Source: a virus. From it: 32,978 nucleotides of DNA. The stretch is from positions 1-32,978 of IMG/VR virus record IMGVR_UViG_3300012920_000137; one strand, written 5' to 3'. The notes below the pieces were generated by a model that did no database searches, was not told the origin of the DNA, and saw only the letters and a program-made list of their open reading frames with translations. Both the position numbers and the translations under genes were made by a program. This document shows, in pieces, positions 3,673 through 28,623 of this stretch (its first letter is position 1; each line of letters starts with the position of its first letter).

Positions 3673-4182
3673 TCATAAGAATTTCTTAGCTTTCGTATAA
3701 TTGAAGTTAAAATTGAACCTACCCTTAGCGTTTGTAGTGGTTGTTGAGTTGTGTGGGATGGATCCATCAAACAGATACAGTCTATTCTCAATGCTTTCTA
3801 TAGTGGTATCCTCACCTATTCTGGTGTACCCATCGCAAGTATTGAGGCAATAGATTGCTGCCCCATGAGAGAATTTACAATCAGAATGTTGTTGATGCTC
3901 ATATATCTCTGATGTATGTGGATAAAAATTGATCTTGATACGTATCCACGTTGCGAAATCTGGTAGATGTTTTTTAAATAATGATTGAATCTCATCAAAA
4001 TGCTGACTCAATGGTCGATGATCTCCATAGATTAAATGGATACCATACCAATTGTCTAAGGAATCTTTCTCTTGACTAGTAGCAACAACATCATGAAGTT
4101 CAAAAGAAAGATTATCATTCCACATCACTGCTTCCTGAAGAAACCTTAGTTGATCTTCTGGTAATAAGTTATCGATAATCAT
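3673..4182 (-). CDS. 2-oxoglutarate/Fe(II)-dependent oxygenase-like protein (169 aa)
   Basis: The double-stranded beta-helix oxygenase signature is visible: an iron-binding H99-S-D101 (EHQQHSD), a distal His144 (SIPHNS), and an Arg155 (AKGRFNFNF) placed to bind the 2-oxoglutarate carboxylate. At 169 aa it is short, essentially just the catalytic core. Such proteins hydroxylate proteins, nucleobases or small molecules using 2-oxoglutarate and O2; the substrate here cannot be told. Its ATG overlaps the stop of the upstream oxygenase gene (TAATG), so the two are co-translated and may form a complex or act in sequence. Cyanophages carry many such genes. Confidence 0.83.
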   Translation of the reverse strand: MIIDNLLPEDQLRFLQEAVMWNDNLSFELHDVVATSQEKDSLDNWYGIHLIYGDHRPLSQHFDEIQSLFKKHLPDFATWIRIKINFYPHTSEIYEHQQHSDCKFSHGAAIYCLNTCDGYTRIGEDTTIESIENRLYLFDGSIPHNSTTTTNAKGRFNFNFNYTKAKKFL

Positions 4183-4856
4183 TATTGAATTGTTGCAAAA
4201 GCGACTTGAGTGTAACGTGTTTCTTTAGTGAATTGATCTGTACCTATACATGGACCATGAGGCATGTGTCCATTGAATAAGATAGCACGGTTTGGTTTAG
4301 CTTGTAAGGTAAAAAGAGGTGGAAAATTTTTCTTTGGTTCCATGAACTCATACTTATCTCTATTCTCATATTCATAGATATTGATTCCCTCTCCCTCCTC
4401 ATAGTGCTTGTTCATAAACACAACCATAGAAATCATATTAGAACTGTCTGAATATGATGCATCATTATGAATGTTGTACCAATTGTTTTGGTAATCAAAC
4501 CATTCATTCGTAAATTGAAACGCATTAAATAATATCCTATCCTTACATTCAACTCTCTCTACAGAAACCTCTGCTAACTGCGCGACGAGATGTTTGTAGT
4601 CTGTAGTAACAGGACATTGAGTCATCGTCATGCTGTATGCATAAGAAGAACGACCATCAAAGTGACTAATATTATCAGATTTATGTACAGGACAGAAAGG
4701 AAGTTTTAGCATTTCCTCATGAGCATGTTCAAACTTCTCATAAAAATTGTTCATCGTGTATATTTTTGTACATCCTAGATCTATTTCTTGTATTGAAATA
4801 GACTTATTGATGATAAAAGAATCTAAATCAATAATATTTTCAGAATTGATGAGCAT
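4182..4856 (-). CDS. 2-oxoglutarate/Fe(II)-dependent oxygenase-like protein (224 aa)
   Basis: The start is the ATG at 4856. The catalytic triad reads H130-N-D132 (NIHNDASYSD) and His200 (GHMPHGPC), with Arg214 (KETRYTQVAFAT) as the likely 2-oxoglutarate anchor. The segment MISMVVFMNKHYEEGEG between them matches the beta-strand and EGG-type turn common in prolyl-hydroxylase-like phage enzymes. The N-terminal ~100 residues are less conserved and may shape the substrate site. It is coupled to the 169-aa oxygenase downstream and faces away from the plus-strand island starting at 4902. Its promoter is not obvious in the ~45-base divergent gap. Confidence 0.83.
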   Translation of the reverse strand: MLINSENIIDLDSFIINKSISIQEIDLGCTKIYTMNNFYEKFEHAHEEMLKLPFCPVHKSDNISHFDGRSSYAYSMTMTQCPVTTDYKHLVAQLAEVSVERVECKDRILFNAFQFTNEWFDYQNNWYNIHNDASYSDSSNMISMVVFMNKHYEEGEGINIYEYENRDKYEFMEPKKNFPPLFTLQAKPNRAILFNGHMPHGPCIGTDQFTKETRYTQVAFATIQ

Positions 4857-4863
4857 GTGGATT

Positions 4864-4871
4864 GATAAATA
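4864..4871 (+). promoter_or_regulatory. T4-late-type promoter (GATAAATA) for secreted-protein island
   Basis: GATAAATA differs at one base from the T4-late consensus TATAAATA and lies about 31 bases before the ATG at 4902, matching the position expected for a short late leader. It is the only such site found on the plus strand ahead of the plus-strand genes. Confidence 0.5.
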
Positions 4872-4901
4872 GACTTAGAGATCTCAGATATGTATTCTAC
4901 C

Positions 4902-5396
4902 ATGAAAAAAGCACTTATGCTTTTTGTTATGTTTTCAATGGTGACTCCCGCTTTTGCAGGCGGGCTCGTAACTAAGCACGCATCCAGTGTACAACTAACT
5001 GTTGATGCTGCTAGATCTACTGCATCGAGAATCGGATCCTCGTTCAGTATCTCAGGTAGTGGAGTTGACACTACGGACGGTACGACTGCTAACACTATTT
5101 CTGCTGGTACTATCACCTCTGGTGTGTACAGTCCTGGTACTATTGCAGCAACTCAGGATACTCCTGGTAATGCATTTAGTTTTAGTCAGTCTTATACACA
5201 GGCTGATGCTGTTCCTCAATCAGCACCAACTGTAGGTGCTGTTCCTAACTTCTCCTCAATTACTTCTTACACAGCTGGAACTGCTGGTGATCTAGCAGGT
5301 ACTATCGGCACTACTGGTGCTATCAGCATCACGGCTGGTGGAGCTGGTACTACAGCAACAGGACAATTTGTTAGTGAGATTACTGTAATTGATTGA
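4902..5396 (+). CDS. Secreted protein A of plus-strand island
   Basis: The protein has a typical Sec signal peptide: MKKALMLFVMFSMVTPAFA with cleavage before GG (about residue 19). The start at 4902 is preferred because it puts the two lysines at the very N-terminus; an ATG at 4890 adds four residues. The mature part is small-residue rich (Gly, Thr, Ser, Ala), lacks cysteine and looks like an extended beta protein. It contains DTPGNAFSFSQSY and ends near FVSEITVID. Both features recur in the next gene, so the two are paralogues. It may be a virion or envelope protein, but the function is not recognised. Confidence 0.8.
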   Translation: MKKALMLFVMFSMVTPAFAGGLVTKHASSVQLTVDAARSTASRIGSSFSISGSGVDTTDGTTANTISAGTITSGVYSPGTIAATQDTPGNAFSFSQSYTQADAVPQSAPTVGAVPNFSSITSYTAGTAGDLAGTIGTTGAISITAGGAGTTATGQFVSEITVID

Positions 5397-5407
5397 GGAC
5401 GTTCGTA

Positions 5408-5854
5408 ATGACGATTTCTGGATCGACTTACTGGAGTATTGCGACAAGTGCGGTGGCAGTATTAGTTACTGCTGCCGCTGCCCAGGCGGTCCCCGTGGTC
5501 CCAAACTTCACCCAGGGCTCAATGACGAGCCACACAGAGACGACTCAGACTATAACTGAGACTATCAACTCCATGGACTATAGCACAGGGTATCAATACT
5601 CTGCAACTGGTTCAGGAGTAACAGCAAGTGGAAACTTATCTCCCACTACAGGCACAAATAATGTAACTATTGAAGGAGTAACTTCATCATGGACAGGTGT
5701 AACAGGCAAACCAACGTTCACACAAACAACACCAGGAGCAGCGTTCCAGTTCACAGAAACTTTATCTTCTCCAGGTTTACAAAATCATACGATCATCCAA
5801 AGGGTGACCGAGGTTACAAGCGTAACAGACACTACAAGTATTTTCTCCCAGTAA
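5408..5854 (+). CDS. Secreted protein B, paralogue of protein A
   Basis: The start chosen is the ATG at 5408, with GAGGA nine to ten bases upstream; an in-frame TTG at 5393 is less likely. A long hydrophobic signal follows (WSIATSAVAVLVTAAAAQA, cleavage before VPVV at about residue 27). The 148-aa product has GSGVTASG, TTPGAAFQFTETLSSPG and VTEVTSVTD, matching the layout of protein A. There are no cysteines and no recognised domain. The last 166 bases overlap the only canonical start-to-stop frame of the next gene. Export out of the cytoplasm is inferred. Confidence 0.78.
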   Translation: MTISGSTYWSIATSAVAVLVTAAAAQAVPVVPNFTQGSMTSHTETTQTITETINSMDYSTGYQYSATGSGVTASGNLSPTTGTNNVTIEGVTSSWTGVTGKPTFTQTTPGAAFQFTETLSSPGLQNHTIIQRVTEVTSVTDTTSIFSQ

Positions 5855-6600
5855 TTGCTGCTCTAGTAGCATCACCAGTTAATGCTGAAACTGTTGGCGG
5901 TGTTAGTGCAACTGCATCTCCAATCGCGAATAGCTCAGGCTCAGTGACCAACCAGGCAATTCAGGTTTTACAAGGTCCATATATTACTAATACTTATGGT
6001 GGTGGTATTCAGTGTCAAGGTCCCACTAGAAACTTCACACCTTATGTAACAGGAACTGCATCGGCATCAAAACCATACGAACCATATTATTGGGATCCAG
6101 TGTACGATGTCACCGATAACTTTGGTGCGTTCGATGATAATGGAAATGATATTGGGGATGGAATTTTAGACAACCCAGGAGATATTGTCTTCCATAAAAA
6201 AACTAGAACTGGACAGAAAGATAACTACAGTCTAGGTGTTGGTTTCTCTATGACGTGGAGTACACCAACAGATAAAAAACTACAAGACCTGTGTAAGAAA
6301 GCTGCTACAACACAGATCGCATTGCAGGAACAATTAACAGCAAATAAAAGATTAGATTTTGAGATCGCGAGACTAAAAAATTGTGGTGAATTATTGAAGG
6401 CAGGAATCCGCTTTACTCCAGGAACAAAGTATGCAAAAATCTGTGCAGATGTACAGGTATCTGGTGTGAACTTTATGGTTCCACACGTACACAAGATTCC
6501 TTCTACTTCTTCGTCTTCGCCTTCACAGCGCGAAGCTTTGCAATCGCTTCATTCCTCTGACGCTGCTCTGCTCGGCGCTCCCTTACAGATTCAACCTTAG
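5689..6600 (+). CDS. Secreted protein C; start uncertain
   Basis: The frame is open from an ATG at 5689, but its first ~50 residues duplicate the coding space of protein B in another frame and do not look protein-like. The true N-terminus probably lies near 5817-5850, where KRNRHYKYFLPVIAALVASP is followed by VNA-E, a clear signal peptide with cleavage before ETVGG. No ATG, GTG or TTG occurs there in frame, so a rare start codon or a frameshift from protein B must be considered. The mature region has GGVSATASPIANSSGSVTNQ, acidic Gly/Asp/Asn-rich segments (FGAFDDNGNDIGDG), then a helical stretch with three cysteines. The last ~30 codons run antisense to the neighbour gene. Function unknown. 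Confidence 0.75.
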   Translation: MDRCNRQTNVHTNNTRSSVPVHRNFIFSRFTKSYDHPKGDRGYKRNRHYKYFLPVIAALVASPVNAETVGGVSATASPIANSSGSVTNQAIQVLQGPYITNTYGGGIQCQGPTRNFTPYVTGTASASKPYEPYYWDPVYDVTDNFGAFDDNGNDIGDGILDNPGDIVFHKKTRTGQKDNYSLGVGFSMTWSTPTDKKLQDLCKKAATTQIALQEQLTANKRLDFEIARLKNCGELLKAGIRFTPGTKYAKICADVQVSGVNFMVPHVHKIPSTSSSSPSQREALQSLHSSDAALLGAPLQIQP

Positions 6601-7309
6601 GTTTCTTACCTCTGATCTGAGCAACCTTCTTCAATACTTTCTTCACTGTAGGTTTGATCACCTTCAGAAGTATATCTGCGAAAGGTTTAGCAAGCAGTGC
6701 AGAAGTAGTAGCAACAACAGCAATACCCCCAGTGGTGATTACGGTCCCCGTTGGGGGTAATCCATTTATGGCTTGTTCAATGATAGGTACATCACGCACC
6801 TCACGAATACATTGATTGCCGACTAATTTATATCCAGTAACTTCTTTCCTACCACTGTCGAAAATAAAACCAACAGGTTCTTCCGACAATTGTTTCTGGG
6901 TAGGACATTGAATCGTTGGAACAGTATCTTTTGTGTTTGGAGTTTTTGCTGCTGGCGTTTCTGTTTCTTTTCTTTCTGGTGGAGAACCAATGGGTGGTAC
7001 TGGTGCTTCATAATTAAATTCTAGATCATCTTTGTTGTAATCCATAGCATTAAACGATGGAACACCAGCATCACAGTATACTTTTACACCCTTAGGATCA
7101 TCATCACTAAGGATACCACTCTTCTCTTTGCTAGTGTTCTGTTCATGTGCCTCTACACAGCCAGGCATATCAACGATAGGCACACCAATATCCACCGTCA
7201 CAGGCAGTGATCTATACACTGGTGCTGGCGGTGGAATTCTTACTGTTATAGGGTTCACATCAATATCACCGATGTCGATGTTATTGATATCAATATTTGG
7301 AATACTCAT
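6503..7309 (-). CDS. Membrane-anchored protein with NIDI repeats and basic tail
   Basis: The start is the ATG at 7309 (MSIPNIDINNIDIGDIDVNP), which overlaps the stop of the upstream gene (TAATG). The 268-aa protein begins with an alternating Asn/Ile/Asp repeat that suggests a beta-solenoid strand, continues with a Pro-rich, acidic linker, has a hydrophobic stretch (GTVITTGGIAVVATTSALLA) that could span the membrane, and ends in a ~60-residue Lys/Arg-rich tail. It contains four cysteines. It is the last gene of the four-gene membrane operon and its 3' end overlaps secreted protein C by 98 bases tail to tail. No family recognised. Confidence 0.78.
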   Translation of the reverse strand: MSIPNIDINNIDIGDIDVNPITVRIPPPAPVYRSLPVTVDIGVPIVDMPGCVEAHEQNTSKEKSGILSDDDPKGVKVYCDAGVPSFNAMDYNKDDLEFNYEAPVPPIGSPPERKETETPAAKTPNTKDTVPTIQCPTQKQLSEEPVGFIFDSGRKEVTGYKLVGNQCIREVRDVPIIEQAINGLPPTGTVITTGGIAVVATTSALLAKPFADILLKVIKPTVKKVLKKVAQIRGKKPKVESVRERRAEQRQRNEAIAKLRAVKAKTKK

Positions 7310-7941
7310 TAGCAATCATTAAATACAGCACCAACTTGTGAACCCATTTCAGAACCTGCTTTCTGTCCTAGGAGTAGTGCCCAACCACCTGCTAACCAAC
7401 CCACGTAGGGGATGCTAGCAACGGCAGGAACGGCGACTCCAGCAGCGATAGCACTACCTGCCATTGCACCTTGAGATCGTGCTCCAGCGTCCGCCGCGAT
7501 ACACTCTGCGCTGACTCCTCCTACAGTCTTTCCCACTTCACCTATTTCACCTCCCCCGATGTTGCGGGTGCCGTCCATAGTGTATTGATCTCTACGATAC
7601 TCAGTTCGTTTCTCAGATCCTCCGCCAAACATTCCTCTCTTTTCTTTGTCTAGATCAAGAGATCTTTCTGACTCAAGAATAGTGGGATCGTTTGCTTTGT
7701 ATTCAATACTATAACCGTCTCTACCTGCATGAATTTTATAGGAAGAGTAATCACCACGAGGGATATTGATAGTTGGAACTGGTGGAACTGGTGGTTCTTC
7801 TGGTTGTCTGATTACATATCCAACTAAACCTATATGAGACACAGCGAACAATGCACCAACGGTTCCGATAAGGATCTTAAACGTTGATGGTTTTTTCTTC
7901 TCTGGTTCTATAAACTTAGTGAGTGTTTCTTCTTCATTCAT
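7309..7941 (-). CDS. Membrane protein with proline-rich linker (210 aa)
   Basis: A short cytoplasmic N-terminus (MNEEETLTKFIEPEKKKPST) is followed by a membrane span at about residues 20-44 and a proline-rich linker EEPPVPPVPTINIP. The middle is charged. The C-terminal ~55 residues are Gly/Ala-rich and hydrophobic (AGSAIAAGVAVPAVASIPYV), resembling glycine-zipper segments that insert in membranes. Its ATG overlaps the stop of the 76-aa gene (ATGA) and its stop overlaps the next start (TAATG), so the four genes are translationally chained. It could belong to an envelope-spanning complex or be a virion protein; there is no recognised homologue. Confidence 0.78.
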   Translation of the reverse strand: MNEEETLTKFIEPEKKKPSTFKILIGTVGALFAVSHIGLVGYVIRQPEEPPVPPVPTINIPRGDYSSYKIHAGRDGYSIEYKANDPTILESERSLDLDKEKRGMFGGGSEKRTEYRRDQYTMDGTRNIGGGEIGEVGKTVGGVSAECIAADAGARSQGAMAGSAIAAGVAVPAVASIPYVGWLAGGWALLLGQKAGSEMGSQVGAVFNDC

Positions 7942-8168
7942 GGTAACGATGGGAGTGCGGGACCTGTAACTTTAGGTAACTCAGGTACTGCAGCATCAAC
8001 CATACCAGGGAGAGCACCAGCAATTGCTTCTGCTGCTGCTTTAGCTACCTTTTCTTTTGCATTTTCAATCAGTGCATCTTTTTGGATGTAGACATAAACT
8101 CCACCACCAATGATGCTAGCAGTTCCTACGAATGATAGGACCGCTAATACATTAATTAACTTTTGCAT
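7938..8168 (-). CDS. Small single-span membrane protein (76 aa)
   Basis: The ATG at 8168 is chosen because a strong AGGAGG Shine-Dalgarno precedes it; upstream in-frame codons lie inside the previous gene. The product starts MQKLINVLAVLSFVGTASII, a single membrane helix, followed by an amphipathic Ala/Lys helix (ENAKEKVAKAAAEAIAGALP) and a proline-rich end. It overlaps the previous gene by 17 bases and the next by 4 bases. Function is not recognised. Confidence 0.8.
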   Translation of the reverse strand: MQKLINVLAVLSFVGTASIIGGGVYVYIQKDALIENAKEKVAKAAAEAIAGALPGMVDAAVPELPKVTGPALPSLP

Positions 8169-8454
8169 TTGTTTCCTCCTGTTTTCCAATTGTAGGTGCT
8201 TTTTTAGGAGCACTACCATTTTTAGCAGGACTCAATCCGAACGCAGCTAACGAGCCGCTGAAGACGGAAGCTATAAAAGTTGGATCAAAATCTAGAATCT
8301 TTTGACCGTTGGGAAGTCTAACGTATGAGAACGTGAGTAGAGAGGCAGACCATATAAGTACAACGACTTTCACTAAATTACCAAGAACTTCACTTTTATC
8401 TTCATCATCCTGCTTCTCTTGTACTTCGATCTCCGATGGTTTAGTTTCAGACAT
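8152..8454 (-). CDS. Two-span membrane protein, holin-like in shape (100 aa)
   Basis: The ATG at 8454 has GGAGG seven to eight bases upstream and lies about 50 bases downstream of a perfect late promoter. The protein has a highly charged N-terminus (MSETKPSEIEVQEKQDDEDK), a first hydrophobic segment at about 27-43 and a second at about 60-75 (FIASVFSGSLAAFGLSPAKN), then a charged C-terminus. Small size, two spans, charged ends and late expression fit a holin or related lysis protein, but this is only topology, not homology. It is the first gene of a four-gene coupled operon. Confidence 0.78.
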   Translation of the reverse strand: MSETKPSEIEVQEKQDDEDKSEVLGNLVKVVVLIWSASLLTFSYVRLPNGQKILDFDPTFIASVFSGSLAAFGLSPAKNGSAPKKAPTIGKQEETNAKVN

Positions 8455-8509
8455 TTTTTTCCTCCACGGTAAACATCGCATGGATCATATGTATAGAGTA
8501 AGGCAACTT

Positions 8510-8517
8510 TATTTATA
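8510..8517 (-). promoter_or_regulatory. T4-late promoter TATAAATA for the membrane-protein operon
   Basis: A perfect TATAAATA on the minus strand sits immediately after the TAG stop of the 1121-aa gene and about 56 bases before the first membrane-protein ATG. Transcription should begin near 8503. Confidence 0.8.
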
Positions 8518-11500
8518 CTATCTCTCTCCTGGTCTGTACGCATTACCTCTGGGGAACAATTGTCCAACCCTAGGTCTCTTGTCTTTCAAGAAGTCTCTAC
8601 TTGTGGTTAGAGGTGTTGTATCTTGCAGTGCTACATTATTTGGGAAGTCAAAATGATCTACTATAGCAACAGCACCTGATGTTGTATCTGCAGGTACAGT
8701 AATTTCATCAACCTCTTCAAAGAATCTAGGATATAGTTGACCATAATCTACAAATGCAGGAGGTCTACCAGGAGATACAAACTTAATTGGTTGATAGATG
8801 AGCGTCATATTTGGGAACCTTGGCCAATTTCTTGGATCATTCCATGTCTTAGTAGAGCTAGTATTTCTATTAAAATGTGTAGTTGGTACAGTCATATCAA
8901 TAGCAGTAGTAGCTCTCTCAGGAACCCAGTTAACAATAGGAGGTGGAGTAACATCTGTCCAATTAGATGTGTGTTGATTACCTCGTGTAAGATGTACATT
9001 CTGTGTTGTTGCTAATGCGGAAGAGAATGCAAACGATATGTTTCCATGTGCTTTTGTTCCGTTCGACATACTAGCATCATCAGTATGCTGATTACCTCTA
9101 GCAAAAGCAAGAGTCCAGTTAGCATCAATAGCAGGGTTGACTTTCCAATACTTATCAAGATCACTACCAGCGTAGCTACCAAATTCCATCTCAGACATAA
9201 TTGGTTGTCCAAATAGAACTTGATCTATACCACCAGTAAATGTTCTGATGTTATTAACACCACTACCAGTGAGAGTAAAACTATAGGTTTGTGCATTACC
9301 AGTGGAGGTATCTGTTACTATTACAGTAAAAGATGTATCACCAAAGTAACTACTTGTAGAAGATGATCCTAGGTAACCTGTATCTGTATTAAAAACTAAG
9401 TTAGTACCAATCAAACTATCACCAGTGATTGTCCATGGTCCTACGTCGAGTGTTTCTCCACCACTGGTAGTGGTTGCACTTGAATACCCTAGGTTAATAC
9501 TAACATTAGAGTTATGTGCGATAGGACTCTGACTGATTGTTCCTTGTCCCTGTGCCCATACATATGTTTTTTCAACAAAAGGAAAGATAGCGCCCCTCAA
9601 TCTAGAGGGAGTAAACGTACTAGATGCAGGGTCAAAATATCCAGCGTCAACAGGAAGACCAGTACCGACAGGTGTACCAGTAGGAGGTGTTGCAGTTTCT
9701 TGTGCATCAGTTCTGGTTTCTAAGTTCACACTTCCAAAATGAGGACCGTCAGTCTCTTGGTGTGTACCACTAATGATACCTAAAGAGAATGGTCCAGCAC
9801 CACCGACATTGATATTGGTTGATGTAAATATATTACCACTACCAAGATCGATTGTTACTGTATTTTGTACAGCATCTTCACCAACAATACCATACCAATT
9901 TTTCTCGAATACAGATGTTATATTGATGTTACCTACTAGTGTTGGTACAGGAACTGGTGTTCTCAACTGAGCTTTTTTACCAACGTTACCTAAAAAGTGA
10001 GACGCATCTACTGGTTGAAACTTAACTACAAGATGAGAAGACCCACTAGTAGTGCTGAATGGATCAGCAGAGATTTCTCTCTCATCCATTTCATCAATAG
10101 GATAGTTAGAACTCCTTCCACTATTTGTTCTATGTCCTGGGTTAGAAGTATTGATCCAGTTTTTCGATAGCGTTGGTACACCAGAGAAACTTTGATTGTA
10201 ATTATGATATTCAGCCCAACATGCTAAGATACCAGTAACGATAGGTGCAGAGAAAGAAGTACCTCCAATATTTTGATACCATGAACCCCAAGTATCTAAG
10301 TAATTAGTTGTAGTTGTCCAATCATAAGTAGGACACTCAACTCTAACACCAGGAGCAACAATGTCTACAGAATTTCCATAGTTAGAAAAGTCAGCATAGG
10401 TATCGTTGTACTCGGTAGCACCAACACTAATTTTCGGTTGATTAAAGTCAACGTTATTGAATCTTAAATCTTGTGGTCCTGCTGTTCTAGCTCCTGCAGC
10501 AAACTTTGCTTGCATAGGACCAAGGAAAGTATCTTGTGCTGAATCAAATCCGTTACCAGCAGAACGAACAATAATAATATTTTCTGATCTACAAACAATA
10601 CTTTCGATCTCATCCATTGCTTCCAGATCATTTGCAGGAAAGTCTGTTCCTACATCATTGAGTTCAATAACAGGTGTACCTCCAGAAGGAGTGCCTGCTC
10701 CAAAAGAAGCGTTGATAATTGCTCGTCTGTTATCACCTTTGTAGTATGAATGTGTACTATCGTTGTGATCAATAACTGCTTGGTATGCTCCAAGGATAGC
10801 AGAGAATGTACCACTTACATTAGAATTAAATGCTTTCAGGGAATATATTCGTGCTCTCTTCGCAACTCCATATCTATATCCCGAAGCCATAATTGCACAC
10901 TCAGTACCATGACCCTCATCATCTTCATTGTTAGTACCATAAGCACCAGCATAATGTGGTAACTGATAGACTCTATAGTCTCCCTGCTCAGATGTACCAT
11001 CTAAATTAGTTCTATTATCTGGATGAAATAATTCTGGATGGAGTGCTGCACCAGCACCAGTAGGTCTACTAGCACCCCTAACTCCACTATCAATGATATA
11101 GATATCAACATTATTCCCAGTGTGAGTGTAGCTGAACTGAGAGTTCATTGCTGATCTTTCTCTCTTGGAAATTCTATCCAAGTGCCATGTATCATACGAC
11201 ATACAAATAGCACCATACCTCTGTGGAGATATAGTGTTCCTACCCATACCAGGATGAGCAGTACAATAGAAGAACAATCTAGATGCTGTTGATGTACCAA
11301 AAGTTACGGTGATACCAGACCCAGCAGAACCAGGAGAATTTCCTAAAACAGTAACACCTTGAGTATATTCTACGCCTCCATTATGAGTACCATCCTGCAT
11401 CTCAGATAACCTAAAAGGATGTCCAGCGTTAGTAGGATCTCCCTGATCAAATGTGAGTGTAGTTCCTGCAGGTATACCTGCATAGTTGGTAGGGATAAAC

Positions 11501-11883
11501 CAACCACCAGTTCCACTGTTAGAGAACTCGTATACGTTTGCTCCGTTTAGTTGATTAACACGAACATATACAGTACCAGTACCACTACCAGCAGCAAACT
11601 TAGTGTTATCAATTGCACTCAGGTCAGCACTATCCAACTGGACAGACTCATTAGTCCTATCTACAGGATCTAATTTATAAGATCTATCCCAGAAACATTT
11701 ATGTCCACACTGATTAACATCCCACTTTACTTGGTCAATGTTTTCATCAGGAATATCAAAAGTTAATGTACGAAAGCTTCTATAACTTTCATGGAACTGA
11801 GCGTATGGTAGTCTTGCTTCAATAGATGAACGGATGTCCTCTAGTGGAGATCTACCACACGCTTTTACTACTAACCTTTTCAT
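8518..11883 (-). CDS. Subtilisin-like serine protease with N-terminal cupredoxin-like domain (1121 aa)
   Basis: Residues 1-90 may be a propeptide. Residues ~103-220 resemble a blue-copper cupredoxin, with His155 (AGHPFRL), Cys207, His210 and Met213 in FYCTAHPGMG as likely ligands. The peptidase S8 domain follows at ~245-575, with Asp265 (YIIDSGV), His325 (DEGHGTE), oxyanion Asn444 (SAGNG) and Ser543 (GGTSFSAP). The remaining ~550 residues are beta-rich, including an Ig/cadherin-like stretch around residues 800-880 (SFTVIVTDTSTGNAQTYSFT). No signal peptide is seen, so it is probably carried on the virion rather than secreted. It lies at the distal end of the fibre gene cluster and abuts the 683-aa structural gene. 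It could digest host surface proteins or mature fibre proteins. Confidence 0.9.
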   Translation of the reverse strand: MKRLVVKACGRSPLEDIRSSIEARLPYAQFHESYRSFRTLTFDIPDENIDQVKWDVNQCGHKCFWDRSYKLDPVDRTNESVQLDSADLSAIDNTKFAAGSGTGTVYVRVNQLNGANVYEFSNSGTGGWFIPTNYAGIPAGTTLTFDQGDPTNAGHPFRLSEMQDGTHNGGVEYTQGVTVLGNSPGSAGSGITVTFGTSTASRLFFYCTAHPGMGRNTISPQRYGAICMSYDTWHLDRISKRERSAMNSQFSYTHTGNNVDIYIIDSGVRGASRPTGAGAALHPELFHPDNRTNLDGTSEQGDYRVYQLPHYAGAYGTNNEDDEGHGTECAIMASGYRYGVAKRARIYSLKAFNSNVSGTFSAILGAYQAVIDHNDSTHSYYKGDNRRAIINASFGAGTPSGGTPVIELNDVGTDFPANDLEAMDEIESIVCRSENIIIVRSAGNGFDSAQDTFLGPMQAKFAAGARTAGPQDLRFNNVDFNQPKISVGATEYNDTYADFSNYGNSVDIVAPGVRVECPTYDWTTTTNYLDTWGSWYQNIGGTSFSAPIVTGILACWAEYHNYNQSFSGVPTLSKNWINTSNPGHRTNSGRSSNYPIDEMDEREISADPFSTTSGSSHLVVKFQPVDASHFLGNVGKKAQLRTPVPVPTLVGNINITSVFEKNWYGIVGEDAVQNTVTIDLGSGNIFTSTNINVGGAGPFSLGIISGTHQETDGPHFGSVNLETRTDAQETATPPTGTPVGTGLPVDAGYFDPASSTFTPSRLRGAIFPFVEKTYVWAQGQGTISQSPIAHNSNVSINLGYSSATTTSGGETLDVGPWTITGDSLIGTNLVFNTDTGYLGSSSTSSYFGDTSFTVIVTDTSTGNAQTYSFTLTGSGVNNIRTFTGGIDQVLFGQPIMSEMEFGSYAGSDLDKYWKVNPAIDANWTLAFARGNQHTDDASMSNGTKAHGNISFAFSSALATTQNVHLTRGNQHTSNWTDVTPPPIVNWVPERATTAIDMTVPTTHFNRNTSSTKTWNDPRNWPRFPNMTLIYQPIKFVSPGRPPAFVDYGQLYPRFFEEVDEITVPADTTSGAVAIVDHFDFPNNVALQDTTPLTTSRDFLKDKRPRVGQLFPRGNAYRPGER
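11224..11577 (-). other. Cupredoxin-like domain within the subtilase protein
   Basis: This is the coding region of residues ~103-220. A beta-rich domain starts at VYVRVNQLNGANVYEF and ends at the copper motif C-x2-HP-x-M (Cys207, His210, Met213), with the upstream His155 spaced as in plastocyanin-type sites. Copper binding is inferred from the four ligands only. Confidence 0.6.
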
Positions 11884-11894
11884 CCTACCCCCGA

Positions 11895-13946
11895 TCAGGT
11901 TGTTCTAGCACAGAATAGAATTCCTCTAGTTCTGTCTGTTTGTTCGTAAGATCCTGTAATTACAGTATAGATTTCAGATGCACTAACGGTAATAGTATCA
12001 CCTTGCTGAATGTTTGCTGCTGGTGTAGCAACATCAAAGTCAATCATAGCAAAGTCATTAGGTAGATAGTATGGTACTGGAGCTACCTTAGCACTCAAAG
12101 GAATACCTTTGATAACTGCATTAAAGTTGGTAGAGTTAGGAAGTCTTGTTTGAGCATAATCATTATTATAATCACCACCAACACTTCTGTAAGTATGATC
12201 TAAATTAGATCTAGTATAGATGTGTACATTATTACTGCTACCAAACTCAGTATCTAGTGATGTAGATCCATAATCAGTATCAACATAATCGGTTCCTCTA
12301 CCATAAGGATAACTTCCATTAGTTACTACTGGTAAGAATCCAAACTCAGCATTTCTCTTAGAGAAGCTAGTATTATGATAGTAATTGTGCTGACCACCAA
12401 AGAAAGATCTAAATTTGATTGATGCAGCTGCATCGCTTGTGTTTGGATAGATTACAGTAACACCACCCAAGAACAAATGATCATAATCAAATAGTCCAGG
12501 AGAAGTATAATCATGCACAAACCAAGTCATGAAACTATTCTCTCTCAACTTAGTTGATGAAAGGTTAGGTTGCTTGAAAGAATACACAACAAAGTTTGGA
12601 TCAGATCCAGACTGATAAGAAATTAGATCAAGGGAATATGCATTGTATGCATTTCTATCTGCAATAATTTGACCATGATCATCATGTCTAGCAGTAGCTA
12701 CTGATCCTGAACTGCTACTCATGTTGGAATCATTATAACGGTGCTGTCTAGGATTACCAACCCTATCAAAATATTCATCACCTTTGAAACGAGCATCATA
12801 CATATAATCTGCTCTGTCGTCATATGTTACATTAGCATCATTTTGATAATCGTAATCGTGACCCTTACCTACACGCGCATTACTGTTAATGGTGTATGAA
12901 TTAGGAAGAACTGTTGATTGTGGAGAAAAGTCAGATCCAGTAACAATATTAATTTCTACCTGACCAGCAACATCTTCGTTAAATTGATACATCTGATAGG
13001 TATACCCATATACCTTACTAGAATCAATCTCCCTTCTACAAACACCCCAAGGAGCTACAGCAGCTTGTCTCGCTTGCTTATCATAGAAAGAATTTGCTGC
13101 GCCAAACTGAGAGAGAACAACACTAGACTGACTAGCAGCAACCACAGTAATTGTATGAACACAAACAGTGGTATCGTCCTGTCTTATATAATATGTTCCT
13201 GCTTGTCCAGGTGCAGGTTTCCACTTAAGATACTGAGAATCAATATCAGAGTCTGATCCGAGGGCACCTTGGTTAACTACATTATTAACAGACCAGTCTT
13301 CTAAATGTTGATCATCATATGTACTATCTTGATTTAAACTAGTATCATTCAAGAAATCATACCACATAATATACGTGTAATCAGTCTGCCCTTTAAGTAA
13401 GAGTGTATCACCCTCAGCAATTGTGATGTTTCCTGCAACCTGAAGTCCACCCTGAACATTGACTGCACCATTAGCATCAACACCAGTCAGATTATTAGCG
13501 CTATCATACTCTAGAGTATAAGTGCTACCACCAGTAGCATACCCTTCAACGTAAACTGTTACGTTAATATCTTGTACACCATTAGAACCATTACCACCAA
13601 AATCTAAATCATTAAGAGTCAGAACATCTCCATTAGCATACCCTCTACCAGCACGATTAAGTGAAACTCTTTTTACTTTACCGTTGTATACATGAACCTC
13701 AAAACTAGCACCTGTACCAGTACCTGTCTGAGCAGAAGGACGAACATCATAGTAATAGTCCCAGGTAAACAGACCAACACGTTGAGTATTCTCACCACCA
13801 TAAGTATGTGACTTAATACCAGCAATCAATCCACTAACAGCAGCAGTGTTTGCTCCGACTGTGGTATGTGCCTGCTCGATCAGATCAATAACATCACTTC
13901 TCGACCATCCAATTGGTTTGCTATGTGTAGTTGCGGTTACAGCCAT
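11895..13946 (-). CDS. Virion structural / tail-fibre-associated protein (683 aa)
   Basis: The protein begins MAVTATTHSKPIGWSRSDVI and contains the segment NRAGRGYANGDVLTL, a Gly-rich GYxxGD repeat seen in cyanophage structural proteins. The middle is Tyr, Asp and Asn-rich with no long hydrophobic stretch and no signal peptide. It is read in series with the fibre genes, eight bases downstream of the 816-aa gene and 11 bases before the protease gene. The C-terminus (QQGDTITVSASEIYTVITGS) looks like a beta-structured cap. A specific role such as baseplate, fibre or receptor binding cannot be assigned; no catalytic motif is seen. Confidence 0.82.
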   Translation of the reverse strand: MAVTATTHSKPIGWSRSDVIDLIEQAHTTVGANTAAVSGLIAGIKSHTYGGENTQRVGLFTWDYYYDVRPSAQTGTGTGASFEVHVYNGKVKRVSLNRAGRGYANGDVLTLNDLDFGGNGSNGVQDINVTVYVEGYATGGSTYTLEYDSANNLTGVDANGAVNVQGGLQVAGNITIAEGDTLLLKGQTDYTYIMWYDFLNDTSLNQDSTYDDQHLEDWSVNNVVNQGALGSDSDIDSQYLKWKPAPGQAGTYYIRQDDTTVCVHTITVVAASQSSVVLSQFGAANSFYDKQARQAAVAPWGVCRREIDSSKVYGYTYQMYQFNEDVAGQVEINIVTGSDFSPQSTVLPNSYTINSNARVGKGHDYDYQNDANVTYDDRADYMYDARFKGDEYFDRVGNPRQHRYNDSNMSSSSGSVATARHDDHGQIIADRNAYNAYSLDLISYQSGSDPNFVVYSFKQPNLSSTKLRENSFMTWFVHDYTSPGLFDYDHLFLGGVTVIYPNTSDAAASIKFRSFFGGQHNYYHNTSFSKRNAEFGFLPVVTNGSYPYGRGTDYVDTDYGSTSLDTEFGSSNNVHIYTRSNLDHTYRSVGGDYNNDYAQTRLPNSTNFNAVIKGIPLSAKVAPVPYYLPNDFAMIDFDVATPAANIQQGDTITVSASEIYTVITGSYEQTDRTRGILFCARTT

Positions 13947-13953
13947 GTTCTAT

Positions 13954-16404
13954 TTACGCCTCCAGTTGCAAGAGAGTGAGAGTTGCAGTGATTGTTGTGT
14001 TCTGACCAGAAAGATTTTTAACGTTTAGATAGACAGTGGTGTTGACTGGTGATTCAGTATTACCACCAACAGTGAATGGAGTAACAATTTGTTGTTGATT
14101 CTGACCTGTGGTAATTACTTCTGCAATTACACCAGAACCAGGATCTGGGTCTTCACCTACATTCCTAAGTAAATCGTCAGTTCTTGCTTGGCTACTACTA
14201 TATATGCGACACCATGCCGCATCAGATAGATTGACTTGGATCAGAGCATATGATTTAAATCCAGTTAGATTTAATGTATCGTATGTGTTATCAGCAAGGA
14301 GAATTGTGGTTCCACTAACAGTTGTTCTACTAGAAAGAGTACCACCCCCTCCACTTCCACCACCAGTAGCACTAAGTACACCACTAGCAGTAATAGCAAG
14401 ACCAGATCCAACAATAACACCACCCAACTGTGAGGTTGTAGCGGCAACAACATTAGCGACACCAGAAGTTTGATCTACATTAATAGTAGGACCATTTTTG
14501 ATACCACCCAGTGTAGTTGGAGATGCAATACCAATAGCACCAGCAGCAGTGCTAAGAACTCCACTGTTATCGATAGTTAATCCACTACCAACTTTAACTG
14601 CACCAAGCACAGTAGAAGATGCATAAGGAAGATCTACACTAGCAACACCAGTTCCACTATTGATTGTAATTCCAGAACCAATCTTAATACCACCTAGTAC
14701 AGTAGCAGAAGCAACAGGAATTGACTGAACATTAGCACTAAGAACACCTTGGTTGCTAATTGTTAATCCGTTTCCAATTTGGACACCACCAACAGTTGCA
14801 TAAGTTGCTAAAGGCAGAGTATATCCACTAGGAGCAGCGCTAATCTGTCCGTTTGATGGATCCATGGTAATACTAGTTCCATCAATTCTAACGCCACCTA
14901 AGACTGTTGTAGATGCAGTGGGTAGTGAATAGAAAACAGAAGGTTTATTTATAATCTGACCTAAACCACTGGTAGCATTCCAATCAGCATTTACTGGTTG
15001 AGTGCTATTAAAAACAATTCTATTGTTAGCAGGTTCATGAGTCAGTGTTGTACCACCTAGAGCAAGAATTTGATAACTAGATGTTGTACCATCTGTAGCA
15101 GTAAGAGTAACTGTAGCTTCGTTACTTGATAATGTAGTTCCTACAGAAAGACTGTAATTGTTTAGGTTGTTATAGTTAGTTCCATCATTTGTCCACTCCC
15201 ACTTATCAGTAGCTTCATTCCAACGTAAGGTTGTATCAGGTTCACTACCTCTATCAATTCTGATCGATCCATTCTGTGATGGAGTACCAGTCTGACCATC
15301 GTTGATAACAATCTCAGTCGCAGATACGTTGAGAGTGTTGACGTTAGTATTAGTTGTTGTCCCTTGTACAGTAAGGTTACCAGTGACTACGAGGTCACCA
15401 ACAGATAAGTTATTAGATGTAGTACCACCTCTACCTGTAATCGTATCAAGAGTATCAGACTCTGCTGTTAGATACGTAGGAGTAAAGTTTTCCCACTGAG
15501 ATGTAGAACTGTTGTACTTGAGGAGATCACCAGCAGTTAGGGTAGAAATAGTTACATCAGTTAGATTAGGAAGTGCAACTGAACTTAAGTAACCTGCAGC
15601 ACCATGATCACCCCATCCATATGCAGCATTCCATTCTGATAGGTTTGTTAATGTAATGCTACCAGCAGGTGCTGCAGCAAACACAGGATCAGTTTCTGCT
15701 GCAGTAGCAGCGTTTCCTGGTTTCCATCTACCAGTAGTAGAATCCCAAATTAATGCTTGACCATTTGTTGGTGCTGATGTTGCTGTATCAACATCTTGGA
15801 AAGTATTGATACCAATGTTAGCAAGAGATCCAGCAACTAGGTATCCCTGACTACTATGATCACCCCAACTGTATGCTGCATTCCACTGAGTAGATCCAGA
15901 TGATCCAGCACCTGTAGTAATACCACCAGTGAATGTTGCATCACCTATAGAAGTAAAGTTGGCGGTTCCAGATACAGTTAAGTTGGTTACTGTAATGTTG
16001 GGGTCACCAGAAAGTCCAGTAGAAGTACCACTGATACTTACGCCAGACATCAATGCTGTGGATGGATTATAGTAAAGAGTATCATCCGCAAATGTTTCTA
16101 CATTACCAGTAGCAGCAGATCCAAGTATGACTGCTAGGTTAACATTATCACTTGCTTTTGTAGTTACATTCAGAATATTATTCTGTTCGTTCAACCAAGC
16201 AGATGAACCATCATATCTGATGACCTGATCTGTTGATAGAGATGATAGTGTTACATCAGTTAGACCACCAAGAGTGGTAGATCCACCACCGCCACCACCA
16301 GCAGGAGGTAGAGACTCCCATGACGATCCATTCCACTCCCAGGTTATACCCGCTGCAGTGTATTGTTGTCCAACCGTAGGATTGGATGGAAATGTAATAG
16401 CCAT
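13954..16404 (-). CDS. Tail fibre / adhesin with LGG repeats (816 aa)
   Basis: The N-terminus (FPSNPTVGQQYTAAGITWEW) is a short domain common in phage fibres. Two WNAAYxWGDHxxxGYL motifs lie at residues ~174-189 and ~258-273, followed by DWNATSGLGQIINKPS at ~474. Six repeats of the type xTVLGGVxxGSGLTI occupy ~495-680 and predict a fibrous trimer shaft. A Gly-rich linker (~680-690) leads to a C-terminal globular domain ending in VTLLQLE-type residues (TATLTLLQLEA), which I recognise from other cyanophage structural proteins. It has no signal peptide. It is likely a side or tail fibre binding the host surface, with an AATAAATA late-type element just upstream. Confidence 0.88.
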   Translation of the reverse strand: MAITFPSNPTVGQQYTAAGITWEWNGSSWESLPPAGGGGGGSTTLGGLTDVTLSSLSTDQVIRYDGSSAWLNEQNNILNVTTKASDNVNLAVILGSAATGNVETFADDTLYYNPSTALMSGVSISGTSTGLSGDPNITVTNLTVSGTANFTSIGDATFTGGITTGAGSSGSTQWNAAYSWGDHSSQGYLVAGSLANIGINTFQDVDTATSAPTNGQALIWDSTTGRWKPGNAATAAETDPVFAAAPAGSITLTNLSEWNAAYGWGDHGAAGYLSSVALPNLTDVTISTLTAGDLLKYNSSTSQWENFTPTYLTAESDTLDTITGRGGTTSNNLSVGDLVVTGNLTVQGTTTNTNVNTLNVSATEIVINDGQTGTPSQNGSIRIDRGSEPDTTLRWNEATDKWEWTNDGTNYNNLNNYSLSVGTTLSSNEATVTLTATDGTTSSYQILALGGTTLTHEPANNRIVFNSTQPVNADWNATSGLGQIINKPSVFYSLPTASTTVLGGVRIDGTSITMDPSNGQISAAPSGYTLPLATYATVGGVQIGNGLTISNQGVLSANVQSIPVASATVLGGIKIGSGITINSGTGVASVDLPYASSTVLGAVKVGSGLTIDNSGVLSTAAGAIGIASPTTLGGIKNGPTINVDQTSGVANVVAATTSQLGGVIVGSGLAITASGVLSATGGGSGGGGTLSSRTTVSGTTILLADNTYDTLNLTGFKSYALIQVNLSDAAWCRIYSSSQARTDDLLRNVGEDPDPGSGVIAEVITTGQNQQQIVTPFTVGGNTESPVNTTVYLNVKNLSGQNTTITATLTLLQLEA
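14365..14922 (-). repeat. Six in-frame LGG repeats in the 816-aa fibre gene
   Basis: Six units of about 27-33 residues carry the core TxLGGVxxGxGxxIxxxGVxS. Examples start at LGGVRIDGTS, VGGVQIGNGL, LGGIKIGSGI, LGAVKVGSGL, LGGIKNGPTI and LGGVIVGSGL. They are diverged at DNA level, so this is an old structural repeat and not a recent expansion. Confidence 0.85.
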
Positions 16405-16426
16405 ATGATTAGTCTAACCCCTAGGG

Positions 16427-16434
16427 TATTTATT
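16427..16434 (-). promoter_or_regulatory. Late-type promoter AATAAATA before the 816-aa fibre gene
   Basis: TAATAAATA on the minus strand matches the T4-late box at seven of eight positions and lies about 23 bases before the ATG at 16404. It overlaps the stop codon of the 1488-aa gene. Confidence 0.5.
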
Positions 16435-19400
16435 AGAAGAATGCAACCTCTACGTTGCCGTTCATGTTTGAAGGATGCAAGGTGCAGACATACTGGAACG
16501 TTGTAGATGTATTAGTTCCACTAACTTCACTATATGGAACAGTAATATACTGAGTTCCTGTCTTACTACCAGTGATCCAACCTGCAGCATATCCAGGGTG
16601 AACAACACCACCAGATCTAAACTCCAGAGGATGACTAGAACCAGCAGTATTGATAATCTTATACTTCAATCCAGCATGGATTCTGAGGTTAATAGTCTGT
16701 GCAGTAGATGTTGGATAACCAGTTCCAGTAAATGAATAGCTGCTAGCTCCATTCGCAGTGAATGTAAGTGTTCCAACAATAGATTCTTCAATAGAATTAG
16801 GACCAGGATTAGATCCAGCAACCCACGTTACATTTCCTGCACCATCACTGGTGAGGACATCACCACTACTACCATTAGTGGTTGGATAAGTCAGACCACC
16901 AGCAGTGAGAGATCCTTTTGCTACAATGTTTCCAGTTGCACCATCTAACTCAACAGCATTAAGAGCACCGAAGTTGTTATGCTTGAGGTATATACCACTA
17001 GCTCCACCTGCACTGGAACCAACTTGTAACTTACCAGATACACTATCTACAACAAACATTTCGTTGGTGTTTGTATCAGTAATAACAAAAGCAGTTGCTG
17101 CATAGTTATCAATGAAAACAGGACCAGTAAATGCACCAGTACCTGCTACTTCGATACCACTAGCAGTTGTCTCCAACTTCTTAGTATTACTATGATATAA
17201 CTCTACTGATCCACCATTCTTTAAGACGATACCTTGATTACTTGAGTTGCAATAGTGTCTTACATCTTGACCACCAGTAGGGAGGAAGTCAGTAAAGTTA
17301 GTACCAACATCAGTAGATGCAACAAATACACTTCCAGTACCAAGTTTAAGAGTCTGACCATTAGGAATAGTTACACCAGTAGCTGAAGTAAGAGAATTAG
17401 TGTCTACACTACCAACATAGAGAGTTCTCCACCTTGTAGTAGTTTCACCAAGATCATATGTTCCATCAGTTGAACAGAGTACATGACCATTGAATGTACC
17501 ATTACCTGTTACAGAGATACCAGTAGAAGTAGTTTCTAGTTTTGTTCCACCACCACCATATCCCAGTTTTACATGTGCTGTATTATTAGTGTATGCATCG
17601 TTTCCAACATCAATAGTAATAATTCCAGTGTATAGATTAGCACCACCAACTTCACCTTTAGTACCAATGTAAAGGTTGTTTTCATCAACAACAATCCAGT
17701 TCGATGTACCATGCACTCCATCTTGCATATGGTACATAGACATATCATTACCAAACTTCAATGTATTGGTGTTTCCAAATGCATTAGCAAGTTGAGTGAC
17801 GATGCCCATCTGAATTCCAGTAGAGCTACCCGACGCACTACTAGAGTTTGCTACCCATGCATAGTCAGTACCATTCCAACTTAGAACATGACCTGATGTA
17901 GCACCACTTACATTCAAGTGAGAGTCTACATCACCATCAGCATAAGATCCACCACCACTTGAAGTTCCACCAGCAGGGTTAGCATCAACCCAGACATTAG
18001 AGTAACGAACCTTCAGTCTACCAGCATCACTCTCCCACCACAGATCACCAGAGTTAGGATTCGCTGGAGGATTATCAGAGATAGTTACATTAGCACCACC
18101 AGTAGCAGCAGAAATAAACTCAAGTGCTGTACCACCAGAGTTGACTGCGAGAACCTGTCCAGCAGATCCCATAGACGCTGGAGTATCAGTGAGACCCAGG
18201 AACGTAGAGGATCCACTACCACCACTAGATGCACCATTTGTCCAGTTAGTTCCATTAAAGTAAAGAACTTGACCCGATGTAGGTGTGGTTAAAGAAACAT
18301 CAGTTAGTTGATCTAGTTGCTGAGCACCACTACCACCGCCACCAGTAGCAGCATTCTGCCATGTTACATTTCCTGCACCATCACTAGTAAGAACCTGCCC
18401 AATAGTTCCATTCGTATTTGGATAAGTTAAACCACCAGCAGTTAGTTGTCCTACAGTAATATTATTAATGGTAGTAGCACCTCTACCAGTTACACTATCA
18501 AGAGTGTCTGTCTCTACTGTTAGATAACCTGCAGATGCATGATCACCCCAACTATACGCTTCGTTCCAGTTTGCCTTCTCTGTGTTCGTTGCTTGTAGAT
18601 ATCCAACAGAAGAATGATCGCCCCAGTTATATGCCTGAGTCCAATTAGTAATATGTGATAGTAGAATACCTGATGCAGGAGATGCAGTGAATAAAGGATC
18701 TACTTCAGTTGTAATGAAGTTGGTAATATCAGGTGGAGTGTACGTAAGTACATTTGTAGCAGAGTTAAAGTCTAAGTTACCAGAACCAAGAGGAGTAGAG
18801 TTGTTCTGTACAAACAAAGAACTATTCTGTTGAACACTACCACTCGCGGTAATAGTAGTAGGAACCCATCTACCACCAGAAGCACTGTAAGATAGAATCT
18901 GTCCATCACCTGCAGGTGTAGATAGATCAACGTCTAAAAGATCACCAATGTTTCTAACACCACCAACAGGAAGCCACTGACCATCCTGATACATCTGAAG
19001 TTGATTATCACCATTATTATAAATTACAGATCCATTCAGAACATTTAGAACATCACGCTCACTATTGTTCTTACTTGGGAATCTAATATAATCGAGTGCT
19101 TGCAGTTCTGTAATAGTCGCACCAGTTGATACTATATTATCTGATACAAGATATCCTTTGAGTCTTAACTCACCTTGAGTGGGTTCAAACTGAATCTTAT
19201 CCGATCCAGCAAATCCACCGTTGTTATTATACTGAATAGAATAATCATTACCACCAGCAACAATACCACCCGCACCTGCTGCACCTGTGTTTGGTGCTGT
19301 AGAAATATTTGTAATCCTACCACTAGGATCAACAGAGATAACAGGAATGGTTGCAGAGCTACCATAAATTCCGTTAGGAACTGCAGTTAGACCTTCTAAC

Positions 19401-20899: not shown

Positions 20900-20926
20900 T
20901 AGATACTACTTCCCCTGTAATAATTG

Positions 20927-20934
20927 TATTTATC
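20927..20934 (-). promoter_or_regulatory. Late-type promoter GATAAATA before the 1488-aa fibre gene
   Basis: TGATAAATAC on the minus strand matches seven of eight positions of the T4-late box. It lies about 28 bases before the ATG at 20899, and just past the stop of the 194-aa gene. Confidence 0.55.
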
Positions 20935-20936
20935 AG

Positions 20937-21521
20937 TTAGGGATTGTAGTGATCATATAAAGTTTTAGTTCTTTCGCAGTTGCGTTGGAATTTGCTGTAG
21001 TTATTAATTACAACATCATTAGCATTAGCAGGGGGATCATTCCATGTAGTGATATTCATGGGTGCATCATATGTCTGCGGAAGGTCCCTAACCCATTGCC
21101 TCCACTCTTCCCAACCAGTTGAATCTAAGTTACTTAATAGTAAGTAAGGATCTGATGCAGTAAGCATTTCATCCCTAGACATTTTTGATCTAGGAGTCCA
21201 AGCAATATAAGGAGCCATATACTCCTCATCATCTTTCTTCTGCTGTGCAGCTATAGATGCTAAATCGTGCTCTCTACATTCATTATAGAGTGTCTCAGCT
21301 AATGCACTATATTTAGTTACTTCTTCTTGGGTGAGAGGTCTGTTATCACCATCAGAAGTTTCTACGATTGAAACAGCAGGAGCAATCTCATCATTATACT
21401 TCATGCACCAAATATAGTCTTCAATATTCTCACTGAAATCTTGATTAATATAACATTCATCAGAATTAAATGCTACGACTCCATCTTGAGCACCTTCACC
21501 TCTCATAAGATAAAATTTCAT
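20937..21521 (-). CDS. Probable tail-fibre assembly chaperone (194 aa)
   Basis: The N-terminal half (MKFYLMRGEGAQDGVVAFNS onward) is soluble and acidic. Residues 137-148 read WEEWRQWVRDLP, matching the W-x2-(Y/W)-RQ-x-(L/V)-RDLP signature of phage tail assembly chaperones that follow fibre genes. The gene sits between two long fibre genes, as expected for a chaperone that folds or trimerises a fibre. Its start at 21521 overlaps the stop of the Cys4 gene by four bases. The assignment rests on the motif and location; the rest is unfamiliar. Confidence 0.7.
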   Translation of the reverse strand: MKFYLMRGEGAQDGVVAFNSDECYINQDFSENIEDYIWCMKYNDEIAPAVSIVETSDGDNRPLTQEEVTKYSALAETLYNECREHDLASIAAQQKKDDEEYMAPYIAWTPRSKMSRDEMLTASDPYLLLSNLDSTGWEEWRQWVRDLPQTYDAPMNITTWNDPPANANDVVINNYSKFQRNCERTKTLYDHYNP

Positions 21522-21847
21522 TTGCTTCCTTCAATCATGCCGTTATTATTTAGAGCAGCAGAAACAATAGCGGGTACAATTTTCTGTGCTTCCAACAAAT
21601 TTTCTTGGAGTTGCTGGTTCTGTTCGGTAGCAACGTTTCTAAAACTTTCCACAGCAGCACCAGCTTGTCTTGCCTGCTGTGATGCTTCTAAAATTAGCAT
21701 GGGTAGAAATGATACTGTACAGTCCCACTCATCAATCTCTTGTCCAGTCTGAGGATCATTGCCCCTCACCTGAATCCACCATTTACATTCAAATTTTTTA
21801 CAAGGACCGTTGACCAAAGGACAAAAGTCTCCACTTTCCATTCTCAT
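21518..21847 (-). CDS. Conserved four-cysteine protein (109 aa)
   Basis: The start at 21847 is supported by AGGAG about seven bases upstream. The N-terminal half has four cysteines in the pattern C9, C16, C21 and C43 (DFCPLVNGPCKKFEC, then WDC), with the aromatic WWIQVRGNDPQTGQEIDEWD between them. The pattern suggests a Zn or Fe-S site. The C-terminal half is an amphipathic helix (ASQQARQAGAAVESFRNVAT) likely to form a coiled coil. I recall similar short proteins as conserved hypotheticals in phages and bacteria but know no function. It is coupled to the chaperone gene, and the 1040-aa fibre ends just upstream. Confidence 0.75.
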   Translation of the reverse strand: MRMESGDFCPLVNGPCKKFECKWWIQVRGNDPQTGQEIDEWDCTVSFLPMLILEASQQARQAGAAVESFRNVATEQNQQLQENLLEAQKIVPAIVSAALNNNGMIEGSK

Positions 21848-21849
21848 AA

Positions 21850-28233: not shown

Positions 28234-28623
28234 TCAAGACTGCCAGTGATAATGATAGAAATTACCTTTGGGATCACACATAGGATCTTCTGATACTACT
28301 CGATATGGTAGCATACGTTGTCCTTTGAAATCTGTTCTGTCACCAATAATACTGTACGCTTGTAGAAGTTTGTCAGTATCTTTTAATTTAGAGATGACAT
28401 GTTGTTTTGCTGCTGGACGACGGTAGAAGAAACCTTCATATTGTCCAGGAGCATACACCACATTAGCAACGGTGTTAGGATACTTTGGTGATTTTACTCT
28501 GTTTAGGATGGATACTGCAACACAGAACTCATCCATTGTATTAGGTGCTGCCTCAACCTGTACTGCTCTAGCAAGATGGTCATAGTCAGCAGGCGTCAAC
28601 GCCAGAATCGTTTCCAAAATCAA
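28234..28623 (-). CDS. SleB/CwlJ-like cell-wall hydrolase (about 129 aa)
   Basis: The core matches the Hydrolase_2 (SleB) family: LARAVQVEAAPNTMDEFCVA with the catalytic Glu about 24 residues from the chosen start, then VSILNRVKSPKYPNTVANVV, and GQYEGFFYR. Such enzymes cut peptidoglycan. The start is placed at a TTG at 28623 because AGGAAAG lies six bases upstream; the ATG at 28689 would overlap the endonuclease gene by 104 bases. No signal peptide is seen, so it needs a holin or virion delivery to reach the wall. It could serve lysis or entry. Confidence 0.78.
   Translation of the reverse strand: MILETILALTPADYDHLARAVQVEAAPNTMDEFCVAVSILNRVKSPKYPNTVANVVYAPGQYEGFFYRRPAAKQHVISKLKDTDKLLQAYSIIGDRTDFKGQRMLPYRVVSEDPMCDPKGNFYHYHWQS

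Follow-up and report, generated by a model that had tools for sequence, protein, structure and literature searches.

Why would a bacteriophage protease carry a domain that resembles a blue copper protein, and what could such a domain do there? This question is raised by an open reading frame at 8518-11883 on the minus strand of a viral DNA fragment of 32,978 nucleotides (IMG/VR record IMGVR_UViG_3300012920_000137; the whole analysed stretch is called the window here). Reading and translation of the frame give an ATG start and a protein of 1121 amino acids. Known blue-copper domains serve as electron carriers or form parts of oxidases. A sequence-only reading of the gene had claimed a cupredoxin-like domain with four metal ligands joined to a complete subtilisin-like triad, in a protein that lacks a signal peptide and is encoded at the end of a tail-fibre cluster. 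All residues named there (H155, C207, H210, M213, D265, H325 and S543) lie at the positions first given.

The window is a cyanomyovirus fragment. It encodes psbA-like, psbD-like and ribonucleotide reductase-like genes, which were recognised by eye from the translations, as well as a transaldolase gene and five tRNAs. As had been claimed, the protease gene comes after a stretch of tail-fibre-like ORFs (11895-24972). Elsewhere in the window, a 2OG-Fe(II) oxygenase-like gene is located at 4182-4856 (-) (PF13640, E=5e-5), adjoined by a small gene at 3673-4182 (-) with a PHROG match named DNA endonuclease V; in phage S-H38, three 2OG-Fe(II) oxygenases are present near a gene bearing a cupredoxin module. 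Of two overlapping ORFs, 28234-28689 and 28586-29044 (-), one is short and cell-wall hydrolase/endolysin-like (PF07486). Its match to a phage endolysin profile of 870 positions is confined to positions 618-759, so it is possibly a fragment or a frameshift.

The features on which the analysis rests are the following, with the type of evidence or the conservation in brackets.

8518..11883, minus strand: whole protease gene, 1121 aa (ORF, residue positions, Pfam, AF2, fold alignment)
11674..11883, minus strand: subtilisin-propeptide-like domain, residues 1-70 (AF2 secondary structure, fold alignment)
11200..11598, minus strand: cupredoxin-like domain, termed type A, residues 96-228 (AF2, fold search, profile links)
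11419..11421, minus strand: His155, putative copper ligand (46/46)
11263..11265, minus strand: Cys207, putative copper ligand and the only Cys of the domain (46/46)
11254..11256, minus strand: His210, putative copper ligand (46/46)
11245..11247, minus strand: Met213, putative axial ligand (45/46, one Leu)
10084..11196, minus strand: S8 catalytic domain, residues 230-600 (PF00082, invariant triad, fold)
11089-11091, minus strand: D265 of the triad (invariant in 46)
10909-10911, minus strand: H325 of the triad (invariant in 46)
10255-10257, minus strand: S543 of the triad (invariant in 46)
8518..9963, minus strand: beta-rich tail, residues 641-1121 and stop (first ~240 residues common to relatives)
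16436..16771, minus strand: plastocyanin-like cupredoxin, termed type B, at the C-terminus of the tail fibre 16433-20899 (profile searches)

The protein is thus ordered as propeptide-like domain, cupredoxin, S8 protease and beta-rich tail. The claim of a complete protease triad was borne out, since Pfam Peptidase_S8 (PF00082) matches residues 256-567 with E=2.8e-29 and D265, H325 and S543 are invariant in 46 non-redundant sequences. In the same 46 sequences N444, the putative oxyanion-hole Asn, is invariant as well. At the N-terminus no hydrophobic signal peptide was seen by inspection; instead, residues 1-66 are predicted to be propeptide-like. The AF2 secondary structure of this region (E2-7, H14-24, E29-34, E39-44, H46-57, E62-65) has the order beta-alpha-beta-beta-alpha-beta. 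The best alignment of a model of residues 1-645 is unprocessed pro-subtilisin E (Z 22.5, rmsd 3.4, 295 residues), and the alignments with pro-subtilisin E, pro-Tk-subtilisin and PCSK9 all start at model residue 1. This model has a mediocre overall pLDDT of 64.5 and was used for the propeptide region and the gross order only. A Pfam search returned no sequence match for the propeptide region. Taken together, the fold of residues 1-66 and the alignment with pro-subtilisins suggest that the N-terminus is propeptide-like and that the next domain is an insertion before the protease. Cleavage would then occur between the propeptide-like domain and the inserted domain.

Pro-subtilisins such as pro-subtilisin E (3whi), pro-Tk-subtilisin and PCSK9 share the order of propeptide-like and S8 domain, and the triad and the oxyanion-hole Asn are conserved in the family of the window protein as well. 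In contrast to them, the window protein contains a cupredoxin of ~130 residues in between and a long beta-rich tail afterwards. No Pfam match was obtained for tail residues 641-1121, and 52 of 85 relatives have one or two further cupredoxin motifs in their tails.

A close described relative is the S8 peptidase of the phages P-HM1 and P-HM2, listed by Sullivan et al. (2010; PMC3037559), where it is T4-GC518, the GenBank label being T4-GC519. It belongs to the same family with the same order of N-terminal domains (48-49% identity over 641 residues), but has about 1830 residues in comparison to 1121 and carries a type B cupredoxin in its tail, which the window protein does not. The P-HM1/P-HM2 records name no cupredoxin. 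For the P-HM2 protease (6001-7920), Pfam reports no S8 match even at E up to 10, despite about 49% identity with the window protein across 641 residues; a HMMER filter may be responsible.

Does the inserted domain have the fold of a cupredoxin? An AF2 model of residues 88-228, built from 44 sequences, is confident, with a pLDDT of 89.8 and a pTM of 0.84, and has a shallow alignment behind it (hhalign Neff about 2). The nearest solved folds are pseudoazurin, rusticyanin, copper nitrite reductases, laccases and other cupredoxin-fold proteins, at middling scores (Z up to 7.7; Foldseek E about 2e-3). The structure prediction proposed as a check in the sequence-only reading therefore gave a cupredoxin fold, as a prediction with middling scores. 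One close match, SO1698 (3njm), carries the description aspartic peptidase; the fold by itself therefore does not indicate copper. On sequence level, no Pfam cupredoxin model matches the window domain (the gathering cut-off of PF00127 was not reached), and searches of NCBIfam and of PDB sequences gave no secure cupredoxin match. Due to this, the link to cupredoxins required fold prediction and a bridge via the type B module, and the first observation goes beyond standard libraries. The bridge, which is independent of the fold prediction, consists of matches between the window domain and the phage type B module (hhalign E=2e-7), between the type A and type B profiles (E=3.8e-9) and between the type B profile and plastocyanin in the PDB (E=4e-5). 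In the last of these, the positions of His, Cys, His and Met line up. The NCBIfam amicyanin model matches a type B domain with E=6e-5, under its cut-off. Weak matches of the type A profile to antibody chains in the PDB arise via a YYC motif and were treated as chance.

The predicted fold, the profile links and the conservation of the ligands agree with the claimed cupredoxin-like domain, and cupredoxin is the fold class that these models assign to the insertion. The known cupredoxins (plastocyanin PF00127, amicyanin, pseudoazurin, rusticyanin) share the predicted beta-sandwich and the order of His, Cys-x2-His and Met. Like known cupredoxins, the type B phage copies match plastocyanin and amicyanin profiles. 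The C-x2-H-x2-M loop of the window domain has the spacing of amicyanin. The window domain differs from cupredoxins by a long GVTxxGTPG segment between the first His and the Cys and by being embedded in a phage protein, where the copper site is putative.

The metal site itself was approached by conservation. The 46 non-redundant sequences are <90% identical, with a domain that averages 65% identity between pairs. They come from 80 IMG/VR loci, where 127 relatives were found overall, and from three Prochlorococcus phages in culture. Since protease motifs were used to find the IMG/VR relatives, this sample was not selected for the ligands. Homologues lacking the Cys/His/Met set, named beforehand as evidence that would speak against the site, did not appear, and the set is kept in the 46 relatives, with Met213 in 45, which exceeds chance. 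A second test sampled IMG/VR by a DNA pattern for GxTYxFDQSDSSN, which contains no ligand. Here, the first His and CxxH are kept in 194 of 203 evaluable distinct copies of a sample that is not purely blind, as some scored loci came from earlier patterns including CxxH. Both are lost in six copies and the state is mixed in three, under scoring rules for His and CxxH that were refined after a first pass with too narrow a rule for the first His. The resulting Fisher p of 2e-9 overstates independence, since related copies were counted separately. Where CxxH is present (195 copies), the axial position is taken by Met 188 times, by Gln four times and by Leu twice, and one copy is unclear. An axial Gln is known from stellacyanin and an axial Leu from some laccases. 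The correlated loss and the Gln and Leu replacements are, at the level of sequence, as expected of a type 1 copper site and fall short of a proof of copper. The strict conservation of the ligands suggests that the metal site matters to the module.

At eight loci, module copies are present that lack one or more ligands, usually several together. They are possibly metal-free descendants, which would serve as natural controls. As some phage copies have no ligand at all, the module can persist without the site.

These few copies would also fit a metal-free spacer, i.e., a cupredoxin-like or immunoglobulin-like beta-sandwich whose ligand residues are conserved for folding. The annotations point the same way, since GenBank notes PF07686 (Ig V-set) in P-HM1/P-HM2, BFVD labels the protein of MED4-213 as immunoglobulin domain-containing, and the YYC motif links the type A profile weakly to antibody chains. 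However, the His, CxxH and axial residue behave as one set, and the fold matches are cupredoxins. Furthermore, the current Pfam Ig matches in P-HM1/2 are located near residues 1440-1480 and 1700-1750, outside the cupredoxin domain, and exactly one Cys is present per domain in 83/83 sequences, so that no Ig disulfide can form within it. The V-set reading is disfavoured by the single Cys, the fold matches and the ligand set, and a metal-free spacer of any kind appears improbable.

With a copper-competent cupredoxin as the preferred assignment, its distribution bears on what it does. Within the window, the tail fibre 16433-20899 (-) has 1488 residues, and its last ~110 are plastocyanin-like (HPLEF ... 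YVCTLHPSNMNG). This type B copy matches PF00127 with E=0.003 and a score of 18.3, below the cut-off of 21.2, and is also matched in a local hmmsearch with a profile that includes its own sequence. Outside the window, at least 585 relatives of the free type A domain were found in viral contigs, and type A matches 158 phage records, among them cyanophages, pelagiphages and methylophages, with protein names such as virion structural protein or tail fibre. For type B, 68 phage records were matched; among the matches listed, most are named baseplate wedge or tail-fibre connector. In Syn9 and S-CAM8, a type B domain ends a gp10-like protein.

The search for the same architecture in other phages, suggested in the sequence-only reading, yielded the propeptide-cupredoxin-S8 order in the 46 non-redundant relatives. 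Phage subtilases carry cupredoxins in several arrangements, i.e., before, inside or after the catalytic domain. The S-BM3 subtilase (4737-11662) has a type B cupredoxin inside the catalytic domain and, farther along the protein, a YHYH domain (PF14240); residues 233-410 of the window protein match 89-284 of S-BM3, and the match resumes past the type B domain at about 292-400. In the S-H9-1 subtilase, the cupredoxin is C-terminal, after the catalytic domain. Two S8 relatives contain a further type A-like domain with an axial Gln (YWCHYHTGQGG), as in stellacyanins.

Beyond the protease, the cupredoxin is therefore a mobile module that occurs widely in structural proteins of marine phages. Promiscuous Ig-like domains of tailed phages are beta-sandwich modules that occupy various positions in fibre and structural proteins; the placement of the phage cupredoxin is similarly varied, and in contrast to them it has a cupredoxin fold with a putative metal site. 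A search of cellular sequences gave 45 matches, nearly all on marine MAG or single-cell contigs, and several inspected ones, with tail-fibre-like starts, are probably phage. Two flavobacterial contigs contain giant ORFs of >3,400 residues, open at both ends, with a type A module, so the module may also occur in bacterial surface proteins.

This distribution has to be weighed against a redox role, in which the copper site would swap electrons with periplasmic or surface carriers of the host, or sense the redox state and in this way switch the protease on at the host surface. Such a role would explain why a complete type 1 ligand set is so strictly conserved, would suit the fixed position between propeptide and catalytic domain in the protease family, and is in line with electron carriers being the nearest sequence families. 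On the contrary, the module is common in fibre and connector proteins with no detected enzyme domain, in phages of photosynthetic and heterotrophic hosts, and it has no known partner. The host range (cyanobacteria, SAR11, methylotrophs) speaks against a function tied to photosynthetic electron carriers, and its placement in fibres and connectors across these hosts makes the module look more like a structural or host-facing beta-sandwich than like a dedicated electron carrier. A redox role is thus judged unlikely, with redox gating of the protease kept as a live minority reading beside the favoured one, in which the module is stabilised by metal and serves for display or linking on a zymogen protease associated with the tail.

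Where the protease acts bears on this favoured reading. Its virion location is suggested by the gene neighbourhood and by the modules shared with structural proteins. An intracellular, non-virion protease with phage or host proteins as its substrates during assembly, and with a cupredoxin that aids folding or targeting only, would agree with the intracellular subtilisin precursors among the fold matches, and virion proteomics covering the protease family was not found in the literature. Nevertheless, the gene lies in or beside tail-fibre gene runs, both in the window and in P-HM1/P-HM2, where it directly precedes gp13, and the modules are common to annotated fibre and connector proteins. This makes an intracellular protease rather improbable.

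The explanation that fits best, with a probability of roughly 0.6, is a zymogen-type cyanomyovirus subtilisin that is associated with the tail and carries a copper-competent cupredoxin from a mobile phage family in a metal-locked display or linking role. Mechanistically, the protease would be placed on or near the tail, and the propeptide would fold the catalytic domain and then be cut off. The cupredoxin would stay as a rigid beta-sandwich locked by its metal, presumably copper, and would link the protease to neighbouring fibre proteins or offer the host envelope a surface; the protease itself may trim proteins of the host surface or of the virion.

Cupredoxins and phage subtilases are each already known, and cupredoxin domains in phage virion proteins are apparently undescribed. 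In titles and abstracts, with most subscription journals outside the search, no published description of a cupredoxin domain in phage virion or tail proteins was found, and the papers checked for virion proteomics or mentions of cupredoxins contained nothing on the protease family. A precedent in concept for metal-bearing tails is given by the title of one report, which names a tail fibre with six potential iron-binding domains (PMC11705849).

The result defines a phage protease architecture of propeptide, cupredoxin and subtilisin, with relatives that have extra cupredoxins at other positions. A broader proposal is that marine phages in general carry copper on their tails via a mobile blue-copper module. 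The module would be an interchangeable building block in fibres, baseplate connectors and virion proteases, and adsorption or activation of the protease would include a step that depends on redox state or metal; this is speculative and, on present evidence, doubtful. The module would serve as a marker for unannotated structural proteins in metagenomes. If it is true that a copper-type module is present across the tail proteins of ocean phages, this would tie the particles to trace-metal chemistry, and it raises the question whether purified cyanophage particles are copper-bearing.
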